Positions 21,633 through 38,534 of a stretch of 41,545 bases of DNA are shown piece after piece. Source of the DNA: Prochlorococcus sp. AG-335-A05 (lineage in GTDB: Bacteria; Cyanobacteriota; Cyanobacteriia; PCC-6307; Cyanobiaceae); NCBI GenBank assembly GCA_003282425.1, contig QBZF01000005.1, positions 1 to 41,545 on the forward strand, in the 5' to 3' direction. The notes beneath the pieces are model-generated. The model did no database searches. It saw only the letters and a list, made by a program, of their open reading frames with translations, and had not been told where the DNA came from. Each line of letters begins with the position of its first letter. Positions within the stretch are counted from its first letter, which is position 1. Position numbers and translations under genes: made by a program.

Positions 21633-23632
21633 TTTGATACTGCAGATCTCCTTCTTCTAGTCCTTCCTGCAGGTGCCTCCTCTGTCTTAGCTACTGGAGT
21701 CTTAACAGAATCTTTTACAGATTGATTATTATTTACTTGATTTGTATTTCTAGCAGATGGATTATTTTTATAATTATTTTGATTGCGGTTTATATTTTGA
21801 TTATTAACATTTGGATAATGTTTATTTTTTGGATGCTGATTTTGCTCATTAACTATTTGAGGTTTATAAGCTCGGGTTCCGCTTGGTGCAGGTTGAGCTA
21901 AGCATAGAATTAATGGCTCTACTTGTAGTTCTCTTCGCATTCTTCTAGTTAAACCATTTTCAATCTCTCTTTGGACCCCAATCCAATCAACTTCAAAACT
22001 ATTGGGACTGGTTTGTCTTGATAATTGTTTCCAGCGGTTTTCCAGTACCCAATTTATCTCTCTTTCAGTCCACATTGACATTTTCCTTGGATCAGCTGAT
22101 ATTACAACACCTCTCAAACTTACTCTTGGTGGAGCCACCATATTACCATCTGTGCTTATAGGGGCTAAAACAGTAACTATTCCATCATCTGCTAACTGCT
22201 GTCTCTCTTTTAGAGCTCTTGCATCTACAACACAAGTCCTCGTATTATCCAACATTTCAATTCCAGACTTTACTGGATCTCCTTGAATCATTGAGTCAGC
22301 TCTAAGCTCAATCGTATCTCCATTATCAAGGATGAGTATATTATTGGGATCTACGCCCATCGATTCAGCGGTTTTACCATGCAGAACTTGCATTCTATAT
22401 TCGCCATGTACTGGAACAAAAAACCTTGGTTTAATTAACGCTAACATCAATCTTTGATCATCTCTACATCCATGACCTGAAACATGAATTCCATGTTCTT
22501 TACCATAAATAACATTAGCTCCCAATTTAATTAATCTATCAATACTATGCACTACAGAAATTGTATTCCCAGGGATTGGGCTGGAAGAAAAAATAACTGT
22601 ATCAGTAGTTTTGAGTTTAACGTGTGGATGTTCATCTCTTCCAATCCTACTTAGTGCAGCCATTACCTCTCCTTGACTACCTGTCATTAAGAGTAATGTT
22701 TCTCTATCCGGCAAATCTCTTATGCTTTTAATTGGAAAAAATAGATCATCAGGACATTTGATATAACCTAATTCACGACATTTACCAACAACATTCAGCA
22801 TTGATCGTCCCATTAATCCAATTTTACGTCCATGCTTCATTGCTAATTGGATCACCATCGCAACTCTATGGGTTGAACTTGCAAAAGTGGTAAGCATCAC
22901 TCTACCTTTGGCTTCAGATATTATTCGATCTAAATTTGGAAAAACAGAAATTTCTGAAGGAACAAAACCCTTTACTTCAGAATTTGTAGAGTCTGAGAGT
23001 AAACAGAGAACACCCTTCTCTCCATAAAATGCCATTCTTTCAATATCAGCATGTTTGTTATCAGGTGGCAGATGATCAAATTTAAAGTCTCCAGTAAAGA
23101 AAACAATACCTACCGGAGTAGTAAGAGCTAAAGAAAAACTGTCGCCAATTGAGTGAGTATTACGTATAAATTCTAATGAAAAATGCTGGCCAAGTCTGAC
23201 AACTTGCCTTGGTTCTATAGTCTGAGTTGTTGTCCTATCAGCCACTCCTGCTTCTTCCATTTTTCCTTTTAGCATTGAGATAGCTAAAGGCGGGCCATAA
23301 ATCACAGGAATATTAAATTTCTTTAAATGATGAGAAATTCCACCAATATGGTCTTCATGACCATGAGTTACTATCATTCCACGAAATCTATTTAAGTTAG
23401 CTTGCAAATAGGATGTATCAGGCATAACAACATTCACACCGTGCATACCATCACTTGGAAAAGCGAGTCCCCCATCTATTAAAATGATGTCATCTTGGTA
23501 TTCAAAAACACATGTGTTTTTGCCTATTTCATGAAGACCCCCTAGAGGAATAATTTTTAAAGCAGGTTCATTTGATCTTTTTGTTTGAGATAAGGTTTGA
23601 TTATTATTTGATTTGATTTGATTTGAATTCAT
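21629..23632 (-). CDS. rnj: Ribonuclease J, with Asn/Gln-rich linker and Arg-rich C-terminal tail
   Basis: 667 aa. IPLGGLHEIGKNTCVFEYQDDIILIDGGLAFP, VTHGHEDHIGGI, FTGDFKFDHLPPD, LLMTGSQGEVMAALSRI, PVHGEYRMQVLHGKTAESMGV. Confidence 0.96.
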   Translation of the reverse strand: MNSNQIKSNNNQTLSQTKRSNEPALKIIPLGGLHEIGKNTCVFEYQDDIILIDGGLAFPSDGMHGVNVVMPDTSYLQANLNRFRGMIVTHGHEDHIGGISHHLKKFNIPVIYGPPLAISMLKGKMEEAGVADRTTTQTIEPRQVVRLGQHFSLEFIRNTHSIGDSFSLALTTPVGIVFFTGDFKFDHLPPDNKHADIERMAFYGEKGVLCLLSDSTNSEVKGFVPSEISVFPNLDRIISEAKGRVMLTTFASSTHRVAMVIQLAMKHGRKIGLMGRSMLNVVGKCRELGYIKCPDDLFFPIKSIRDLPDRETLLLMTGSQGEVMAALSRIGRDEHPHVKLKTTDTVIFSSSPIPGNTISVVHSIDRLIKLGANVIYGKEHGIHVSGHGCRDDQRLMLALIKPRFFVPVHGEYRMQVLHGKTAESMGVDPNNILILDNGDTIELRADSMIQGDPVKSGIEMLDNTRTCVVDARALKERQQLADDGIVTVLAPISTDGNMVAPPRVSLRGVVISADPRKMSMWTEREINWVLENRWKQLSRQTSPNSFEVDWIGVQREIENGLTRRMRRELQVEPLILCLAQPAPSGTRAYKPQIVNEQNQHPKNKHYPNVNNQNINRNQNNYKNNPSARNTNQVNNNQSVKDSVKTPVAKTEEAPAGRTRRRRSAVSN

Positions 23633-35226: not shown

Positions 35227-36024
35227 ATGAAAGAAGATTCATCTTTACAAATTGGAGGTAAAAGCTTCTCAAGTAGATTGATGGTTGGTACAGGAAAATA
35301 TAAGTCTTCAGAAGTAATGAGAGAGAGTTTAGCGAATACTGAATCTGAAATAGTGACTGTCGCAGTAAGAAGAATTCAAAATAATCAAAATGGTGAAAAT
35401 TTACTGGAAAAAATTGATTGGAACAAATTCTGGATGCTTCCTAATACTGCTGGTTGCAGCAATTCAGATGAAGCAATAAGAATAGCAATTTTGGGAAGAG
35501 AACTTGCCAAATTATCAGGTCAAGAAGAAAATAATTTCGTCAAATTAGAAGTTATTCCTGATAAAAAATATTTGTTGCCTGATCCTATTGAAACCCTTAA
35601 AGCAGCTGAAATATTGATAAATAAAAATTTTATTGTTCTTCCATATATAAATGCTGATCCAATATTAGCTAAAAAGTTAGAAGAGATAGGTTGTTCAACT
35701 GTGATGCCATTAGGGTCACCTATTGGCTCCGGACAAGGCCTTTTAAATTTATCTAATATATCCATTATTATTGAAAATTCTAATATTCCAGTAATAATTG
35801 ATGCAGGCATAGGTGTACCTAGTGAAGCTTCTCAGGCTATGGAACTTGGAGCAGATGGAGTTTTAATCAATAGTGCTATCGCATTAGCTCAAAACCCCTT
35901 AAAAATGGCTAAAGCGATGAATTATGGGGTAAAAGCAGGAAGAGACGCTTTTTTAGCGGGAAGAATTGAGATGCAGAGGCTAGCAAGCGCTAGTTCACCT
36001 GAAAAAAACATATCAATAAAATAA
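35227..36024 (+). CDS. thiG: Thiazole synthase
   Basis: 265 aa. [125 protein letters not shown]. Confidence 0.98.
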
Positions 36025-36035
36025 TTTGATTCTTG

Positions 36036-36060
36036 AAAAAATTTTAATAACAAATTTTTT
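36036..36060 (+). terminator. Possible intrinsic terminator after thiG
   Basis: Perfect 9-bp inverted repeat AAAAAATTT-TAATAAC-AAATTTTTT, 12 nt after the thiG stop and ending in a T-run. AT-only stem. Confidence 0.35.
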
Positions 36061-36080
36061 AACTAAAGAGAAAAGATTTG

Positions 36081-36113
36081 AAACTTTTTACAAACTTTTT
36101 ACAATCTTTTTTC
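36081..36113 (+). repeat. 11-bp phased tandem repeat (two exact copies plus one degenerate) upstream of sqdB; candidate operator
   Basis: AAACTTTTTAC AAACTTTTTAC AATCTTTTTTC: two exact 11-mers and one degenerate 11-mer back to back, in the 155-nt thiG-sqdB gap. Confidence 0.6.
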
Positions 36114-36179
36114 GCATTTTGGAAGCACTCTGTAGTAATTTAATAAATGTAAAATGATATTTTAATTCTGGAGTTTTGA

Positions 36180-37373
36180 GTGAAAGTAATTGTTCTTGGT
36201 GGAGATGGTTTTTGCGGTTGGCCTTGTGCGGTGAATTTAGCAGAACAAAATCATGAGGCTATTATAGTTGACAACCTAAGTCGCAGAAAAATAGATATTG
36301 ATCTTGAAGTGGAATCGTTAACCCCAATTTCTTCTATAAATGAAAGACTTTCTGCATGGGAAGAGACCGGTGGAAAACCAATAAAATTTGTCAATATTGA
36401 TCTTTCGAAACAATATCAAAAATTACTAAATTTACTTATAGAAGAAAAACCTGATTCGATTGTACATTTTGCTGAACAAAGAGCTGCACCATACTCAATG
36501 AAATCAAGTTATACCAAAAGATATACAGTTGATAATAATGTGAATGGTACTCACAATTTACTTGCTGCAATTGTAGAAAGTAATTTAGATATTCATATTG
36601 TTCATTTAGGAACCATGGGAGTATATGGATATGGATCACATAGAGGCGCAACAATTCCTGAAGGTTATTTAAAAGTTGAAGTACCTCAACCGGATGGAAG
36701 TCGTTTTGAAGAAGAAATTCTTCATCCCGCCAGTCCTGGCAGCGTTTACCATATGACAAAGACATTAGATCAATTATTATTTCTTTATTACAATAAGAAC
36801 GACTTGATTAGGATTACAGATTTACATCAAGGCATTGTTTGGGGCACAAATACAAAAACAACATTAAAAGATCCAAGATTGACAAATAGATTCGATTACG
36901 ACGGCGATTACGGTACTGTTCTGAATAGATTTCTCATGCAAGCAGCAATCGGATATCCCCTTACTGTTCATGGGACAGGAGGACAAACAAGAGCTTTTAT
37001 ACATATAAAAGATTCAGTAAAATGCGTCCAACTAGCTCTAGAAAATCCTCCACAATCTGGCGAACGAGTAAAAATTTTTAATCAAATGACAGAAAGTCAC
37101 CAAGTTGGCGAATTAGCTAAAAAAGTTGCTTCTCTTACTGGAGCCGAAATAAATTATTTACCAAATCCTCGAAATGAAGCTGTCGAAAATGATTTAATAG
37201 TTGATAATAAATGCTTCATAGAATTGGGGCTTAATCCCACCACTCTTGATAATGGCTTATTAGAAGAAGTTGTTGAAGTAGCTAAAAAATACTCTATGAG
37301 ATGTGATAAAAAAAGAATTCCTTGTATTTCAACTTGGACGAAAAAACAGGCTAAAGCAATAAAAACTAATTAA
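36180..37373 (+). CDS. sqdB: UDP-sulfoquinovose synthase
   Basis: 397 aa from a GTG start. VIVLGGDGFCGWPCAVNLAEQNHEAIIVDNLSRRKIDIDLEVESLTPI...HFAEQRAAPYSMKS...HLGTMGVYGYG...SVYHMTKTLDQLLFLYYNKNDLIRITDLHQGIVWG. Confidence 0.97.
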   Translation: MKVIVLGGDGFCGWPCAVNLAEQNHEAIIVDNLSRRKIDIDLEVESLTPISSINERLSAWEETGGKPIKFVNIDLSKQYQKLLNLLIEEKPDSIVHFAEQRAAPYSMKSSYTKRYTVDNNVNGTHNLLAAIVESNLDIHIVHLGTMGVYGYGSHRGATIPEGYLKVEVPQPDGSRFEEEILHPASPGSVYHMTKTLDQLLFLYYNKNDLIRITDLHQGIVWGTNTKTTLKDPRLTNRFDYDGDYGTVLNRFLMQAAIGYPLTVHGTGGQTRAFIHIKDSVKCVQLALENPPQSGERVKIFNQMTESHQVGELAKKVASLTGAEINYLPNPRNEAVENDLIVDNKCFIELGLNPTTLDNGLLEEVVEVAKKYSMRCDKKRIPCISTWTKKQAKAIKTN

Positions 37374-37400: not shown

Positions 37401-38534
37401 GTGAAAATCGCATTCTTTACTGAAACTTTTCTACCTAAAGTTGACGGAATAGTAACAAGACTAACTAAAACCATCGAATTTTTAACAAAAAATGGTGATG
37501 AAGTTATAGTGTTTTGTCCTGAAGGATGTCCTGATTTTTATAAAGGAGCAACAATAATAGGAGTTGCTGCAATGCCGCTACCTTTATATCCTGAATTAAA
37601 ATTAGGCTTACCTGGCCCTGCAGTCTCTGATAAGTTAGAAGAATTCAAGCCAGACTTAGTACATGTAGTTAATCCCGCTGTACTTGGACTTGGAGGTATA
37701 TGGCTAGCAAAAACAAACAATATTCCACTAATTGCAAGTTACCATACACATCTTCCTAAATATCTTGAACACTACGGAATGGGAATGTTAGAACCCCTTT
37801 TATGGGAGTTGTTAAAAGCAGCTCATAATCAAGCCTTATTAAATCTTTGCACCTCAACTGCAATGGTTAATGAACTCGAAGATAAAGGAATACAGAGGAC
37901 TGCTTTATGGCAAAGAGGTGTCGACACTGAAAACTTCAGACCAGAATTAAGAAGCAAAAAAATGAGAGAAAAATTATTTGGAAAATATCAAAATACTGAT
38001 TCACTTTTGATTTATGTGGGTAGATTATCGGCAGAAAAGCAAATTGAAAGGATTAAACCTGTATTAGATAATATACCCGGAACATGTCTCGCTCTAGTGG
38101 GAGATGGACCATACAGGGGACAGTTAGAAAAGATTTTTGAAAACACAAAAACAAATTTTATAGGTTATTTGTCTGGTGAAGAGCTAGCCAGTGCATACGC
38201 ATCTGGAGATATATTCTTATTCCCATCAAGCACAGAAACTCTCGGATTAGTTTTGTTAGAAGCAATGGCTGCAGGATGCCCAGTAATAGGGGCTAATAAA
38301 GGAGGTATCCCAGATATTATCAATGATGGGATAAATGGTTGCTTATATAACCCAGATGAAAAAGACAACGGAGAAAGAAGTTTAATTGAAGCTACTAAAA
38401 AAATCCTGGCAGATAAAAATAAAAAAGAAGCTATGAGTAAAGAAGCTAGGAAAGAAGCTGAACAATGGAGTTGGAACCAAGCTACACTTCAATTACAAAA
38501 ATATTATTCAGAAACACTAGAAAATATCTCCTAA
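37401..38534 (+). CDS. sqdX: Sulfoquinovosyltransferase SqdX (GT4-type)
   Basis: 377 aa from a GTG start. IAFFTETFLPKVDGIVTRLTKTIEFL, ASYHTHLPKYLEHYGMG, LWQRGVDTENFRPE, LIYVGRLSAEKQIERIKPVL, FPSSTETLGLVLLEAMAAGCPVIGANKGGIPDII; directly after sqdB. Confidence 0.95.
   Translation: MKIAFFTETFLPKVDGIVTRLTKTIEFLTKNGDEVIVFCPEGCPDFYKGATIIGVAAMPLPLYPELKLGLPGPAVSDKLEEFKPDLVHVVNPAVLGLGGIWLAKTNNIPLIASYHTHLPKYLEHYGMGMLEPLLWELLKAAHNQALLNLCTSTAMVNELEDKGIQRTALWQRGVDTENFRPELRSKKMREKLFGKYQNTDSLLIYVGRLSAEKQIERIKPVLDNIPGTCLALVGDGPYRGQLEKIFENTKTNFIGYLSGEELASAYASGDIFLFPSSTETLGLVLLEAMAAGCPVIGANKGGIPDIINDGINGCLYNPDEKDNGERSLIEATKKILADKNKKEAMSKEARKEAEQWSWNQATLQLQKYYSETLENIS

Follow-up and report, generated by a model that had tools for sequence, protein, structure and literature searches.

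Sulfolipid takes the place of phospholipid in marine picocyanobacteria, which makes phosphate supply the obvious candidate signal for the genes that produce it. The stretch of Prochlorococcus sp. AG-335-A05 DNA analysed here (41,545 nucleotides, hereafter the window) carries a phased repeat just upstream of sqdB, and the question is whether this repeat is a phosphate-responsive operator, as the first-pass annotation proposed, or part of some other signal. The genes concerned are listed below; the names sqdB and sqdX were assigned from best matches under the NCBIfam cut-offs together with gene order.

35227..36024, + strand: thiG (PF05690, E 6e-106)
36180..37373, + strand: sqdB, UDP-sulfoquinovose synthase (best NCBIfam match NF041015, E 4e-99, below cut-off)
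37401..38534, + strand: family-4 glycosyltransferase in the sqdX position (PF00534/PF13439; named from gene order)
36170..36173, + strand: GGAG ribosome-binding site (from sequence; invariant in the alignment of high-light, HL, relatives)

The repeat array and its statistics

The window reads CTTTTTAC-aaa-CTTTTTAC-aat-CTTTTTTC at 36084-36113, so that the three 8-mers with 3-nt spacers and an 11-bp period, two of them exact, were correctly described. The AAA at 36081 belongs to the period too, hence the annotated start at 36081. The distance of 66 nt from the end of the repeat to the sqdB GTG (36180) and the positions of the TAATTT (36136) and TAAAAT (36150) sequences likewise hold.

36084-36091: repeat unit 1, CTTTTTAC
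36095-36102: repeat unit 2, CTTTTTAC
36106..36113, + strand: unit 3, CTTTTTTC, imperfect; ancestral, its first base being G/C/A in relatives
36081..36104, + strand: period-11 tandem duplication AAACTTTTTAC AAACTTTTTAC AA; by alignment the extra copy is 36081-36091, missing in all other HL genomes

Tandem Repeats Finder reports 36081-36111 with period 11, 2.8 copies and 95% matches, and the exact lag-11 self-match of 13 positions defines a 24-bp period-11 tract, AAACTTTTTACAAACTTTTTACAA, at 36081-36104. Across the 41.5-kb window a lag-11 run of at least 11 occurs in the sqdB-upstream tract only, and none of 100 windows simulated under first-order Markov models contained one, which rules out a chance repeat; for simulated 155-bp gaps of equal composition the probability was 0.0004 at lag 11 and 0.008 at any lag from 7 to 30. 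The first-pass annotation had also suggested looking for the same array across the source genome, a partial (54%) HL Prochlorococcus genome for which all genome-wide statements are pattern searches. No second exact array was found there, and loose matches with at most three mismatches numbered 61, fewer than the 81 of the reversed control pattern.

A private duplication within a conserved element

A SqdB match is present in 183 of the 200 genus genomes, and the upstream alignment reduced 130 sqdB loci to 97 distinct HL Prochlorococcus sequences. Among these 97 regions the array occurs only in the window's genome; the relatives read GATTTGAAAC-T(T/A)TTTACAAT-(G/C/A)TTTTTTCGCA, a single unit taking the place of the two in the window, and it is therefore the window that gained 11 bp. 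Judged from this alignment, the three-unit array is a strain-private 11-bp tandem duplication within a conserved promoter element. The 24-bp exact period-11 tract, the AT-rich gap and the restriction to one genome are as in short tandem duplications of the slippage type; unlike an ordinary slippage product, however, this copy lies within conserved promoter sequence and is about one helical turn long, so that the flanking parts keep their phase. The phasing, whose lack of conservation in orthologous upstream regions the first-pass annotation had named first among the results that would refute its reading, is thus absent from all other HL sequences, which in place of the phased repeats of OmpR-class sites keep CTWTTTAC-AAT-NTTTTTTC, a poor repeat.

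What the HL relatives do share is the single-copy element AAGATTTGAAACTWTTTACAATNTTTTTTCGCANNNTGGAAGCACNCTGTAGTAATTTAATAAAT, which lies within a longer conserved block.

36071..36157, + strand: conserved HL-clade promoter block, 11-bp insertion excluded (HL alignment)

Only columns 36072, 36097, 36106, 36117-36119, 36129 and 36152-36153 vary in this block, and in the most diverged HL pairs its pieces remain 94-98% identical, as against 47% for the fourfold sites of sqdB and 53% for the gap just upstream. By pattern search the 26-bp core was found in 199 of 266 genus genomes, a count that holds for that search setting since at least one unmatched genome (G183) carries a diverged version at the same position, and in 80 of the 87 near-complete ones. 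The core occurs once per matching genome, with two matches only in the window's genome (n=266), and its reversed control gave no match in the 266 genomes; the 18-bp core TTTGAAACTNTTTACAAT at up to three mismatches showed no enrichment over its reversed control. As a promoter footprint the conserved element before sqdB is good but ordinary, and it narrows the target of a binding assay to a precise 60 bp. The locus also carries a lesson, that a striking repeat in a single genome can be a private duplication within a truly conserved signal.

The putative core promoter

Outside the HL clade only TGTAGTAR is kept, mostly about 52 nt before the sqdB start codon and at about 47-72 nt in 43 of 46 non-HL sqdB loci. 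A block whose spacing from the start codon is so steady throughout the family is what a core promoter would look like, and we infer that it represents the -10 region of the sqdB promoter.

36131..36138, + strand: TGTAGTAA, HL form of the TGTAGTAR block, putative -10 region

Transcription of sqdB would then begin near 36143-36146, and a start upstream of the repeats, the case named by the first-pass annotation as fatal to an operator, appears unlikely. With TGTAGTAR as the presumed -10, the HL element would lie upstream of the start, where activators bind. Of the proposed OmpR/PhoB-family operator, what stands is its place within a strongly conserved promoter-proximal element upstream of the likely -10 region, while the exact array proved to be private to the window. 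A literature search yielded no transcription start or phosphate response for the Prochlorococcus sqdB gene, and no data on protein binding to its promoter or on its expression. As a separate observation, some 40 genera of the family, including ones with GC-rich genomes, carry CCTGTAGTAGCTTG almost without change ahead of sqdB; as a putative -10 block it is both unusual and unusually well conserved.

The block might simply be promoter architecture, an AT-rich UP-like and -35 region with no dedicated regulator in which the duplication was neutral. It is indeed AT-rich, lies beside the putative -10, occurs once per genome and matches no other promoter at up to two mismatches over 26 bp. However, base-specific conservation over about 60 bp, GATTTGAAAC and TTTTTTCGCA included, exceeds what a generic AT-rich tract needs, and the block is missing outside the HL clade while the -10 block persists there, so that we regard this explanation as rather unlikely.

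The duplication might also have created a second promoter in the window strain.

36078..36105, + strand: TTGAAA-N16-TACAAT promoter-like pair, product of the duplication (spacer 5 in relatives)

This pair matches 10 of 12 sigma-70 consensus positions with a spacer of 16, compared with only 5 in relatives; yet shuffles of the region yield a mean of 1.0 such sites, which is not beyond chance, and the limited dependence of MED4-type promoters on a -35 box also counts against it, leaving a second promoter improbable.

The conservation might instead reflect a short leader peptide before sqdB, TTG AAA CTW TTT ACA ATN TTT TTT CGC ... TGA, since reading by eye shows no stop before a TGA near 36156 in most HL sequences. 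The frame is nevertheless broken by one-base T-run deletions in 5 of the 97 sequences and by the window's own 11-bp insertion, the second base of the codon CNC is free to vary, and synonymous bases in the -10 block are invariant; with frameshifts and free second codon positions ruling it out, we find the leader peptide scarcely credible. A structured leader was rejected as well, the strand folding worse than its own shuffles, and no known RNA family was matched in Rfam up to E = 1. By eye, the NtcA site (GTAN8TAC) is absent from the sqdB upstream region.

The proposed phosphate control through a Pho box

The Pho boxes of E. coli and cyanobacteria are laid out as 8-bp repeats with 3-bp spacers (PMC1906773), and the 8-bp units, 3-bp spacers and 11-bp period of the window array agree with this layout and phasing. 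On this likeness the first-pass annotation suggested an operator for PhoB/SphR, through which phosphate stress would induce sqdB. The resemblance ends there, however, because the TTAA core that PhoB binding requires in Synechocystis (PMC11126600) is missing from CTTTTTAC, CTTTTTAC and CTTTTTTC alike, in line with the annotation's own caution that the unit fits the published consensus poorly. A matrix derived from Pho boxes in the literature (PMC1906773, PMC11126600) gave the array -3.6, a background score that ranked 2089 of 83032 positions, whereas the 27 published sites scored 5.7 to 24.6; the best match in the window, at 22650, falls within a coding gene and was taken as chance.

The comparison with relatives is equally unfavourable, since the repeat phasing is not kept and the element is independent of phoB. 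Of the 60 HL genomes with a completeness of 95% or more, 32 encode a PhoB ortholog (79-100% identity) and 28 encode none, and the sqdB element is present in 30 of the former and 26 of the latter. Five of the PhoB-less carriers (G041, G108, G022, G050 and G182) are assembled as single contigs, and incomplete sequence is therefore no explanation for the absence of PhoB. Furthermore, predicted Pho regulons make no mention of sqdB, and the report of lipid substitution under P-replete conditions too (PMC10284923) counts against a Pho box. With no TTAA core, a background matrix score and an element retained without phoB, PhoB is therefore unlikely; a PhoB/SphR operator before sqdB is not supported, and we give phosphate induction through the 8+3 repeats only a very slim chance. 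That a near-invariant element is indifferent to phoB speaks against sqdB belonging to the Pho regulon in the HL clade and indicates another signal.

RpaB and other OmpR-type regulators as candidates

Genome G015 encodes five proteins with an OmpR-type DNA-binding domain, namely PhoB (with an adjacent kinase-like gene), RpaB, RpaA and two others, of which RpaB passes its NCBIfam cut-off and PhoB and RpaA were named by best resemblance and context. RpaB is encoded in the clade, as one protein (L234) passes NF045944 at 384 bits against a cut-off of 330, and matches at RpaA- and RpaB-like level occur in nearly all near-complete HL genomes. RpaB binds the HLR1 motif, with consensus KTTACAWW-N2-KTTACAWW (PMC13421787, PMC9241938), and part of the sqdB element resembles it.

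36077..36105, + strand: HLR1-like half-sites TTTGAAAC (36077-36084) and TTTACAAT (36098-36105), a candidate site for RpaB or another OmpR-type regulator

In the relatives the two half-sites align as TTTGAAAC-tW-TTTACAAT, 2 nt apart, and match HLR1 at 13 of 16 positions, a level close to chance in that about 20% of 60-bp stretches of that composition match as well; in the window the duplication inserts TTTACAAA (36087-36094) between them. TTTACAAT is a perfect HLR1 half-site with the poor TTTGAAAC upstream of it; suggestively, the commonest variable base of the element falls in the spacer, and the location upstream of the putative -10 fits activation, being close to the -45 to -66 range from which RpaB activates (PMC13421787) if that -10 is correctly placed. 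Unlike in HLR1, the two perfect half-sites of the window lie 3 nt apart, following the 11-bp period, and not 2.

The best genome-wide HLR1 matches of HL genomes directly precede hli genes, a positive control from which it follows that the HLR1 code is in use in the clade; at up to two mismatches HLR1 showed no genome-wide enrichment over its reversed pattern, so only these best matches are informative. The hli promoters share with the sqdB element their TTTACA/GTTACA half-sites at about 10-bp spacing in the same genomes, but differ in having near-perfect, paired or doubled sites about 15-50 bp from the start codon, a repressor-like position. Near-perfect and often doubled HLR1-like arrays such as CTTTACATTTGTTAATAGTAGTGTTACATTAATTAACAATTA were seen directly 5' of the start codon in hli genes of HL Prochlorococcus (L200, L206, L207, L257-L261, L263 and L266-L268, around position 1501).

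We propose that sqdB, and perhaps sqdX with it, would be transcribed in HL Prochlorococcus from a promoter whose -10 is the TGTAGTAR block, and that the single-copy element just upstream (36071-36128 minus the insertion) would serve as the binding site of a regulator common to all HL strains. That regulator would most likely be an activator of the OmpR type, with RpaB first, RpaA second and PhoB set aside, and in the window lineage an 11-bp tandem duplication copied AAACTTTTTAC once to give the three-unit array, where the extra copy may add a half-site or be neutral. As a whole this is an account in which belief and doubt weigh about equally for us. Within it, an OmpR-type regulator other than PhoB may bind the element, with RpaB as our leading guess. 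The regulator might also belong to another family than OmpR or be a hitherto uncharacterised protein, in keeping with the poor fit of the conserved sequence to every published consensus: HLR1 accounts for part of the element only, and conserved bases (TTTTTTCGCA, TGGAAGCAC) extend outside any HLR1 reading of it. We consider such a regulator quite unlikely.

The thiG-sqdB gap in other genera

A different gene lies upstream of sqdB in other genera of the family. One non-HL genome has a Psb34-like small protein there (NF033486, E 3e-10, below cut-off), and a Psb34-like gene directly precedes sqdB in all three non-HL genomes tested. Four complete HL genomes gave no match to it. The gap without the Psb34-like gene holds the HL-specific promoter element in these four genomes (window 36025-36179), and the source genome has a weak Psb34-like match elsewhere only (G000:C23, 19.8 bits). 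A more speculative extension, which we hold to be distinctly doubtful, is that a psb34-like gene was lost from the gap and an HL-specific operator then gained, which would have placed sulfolipid under the light/redox regulator RpaB instead of phosphate, the window strain adding a half-site in helical phase.

A conserved element was also seen upstream of psaA in eight HL genomes (L249-L256), where AGTAACAATCATTGAAACATTTGTTAC is found some 150-200 bp before the gene and has inverted arms of 7 bp (GTAACAA/TTGTTAC). This element, roughly TTGAAACATTTGTTAC between the inverted GTAACAA arms, is only loosely like the sqdB core TTGAAACTWTTTAC.
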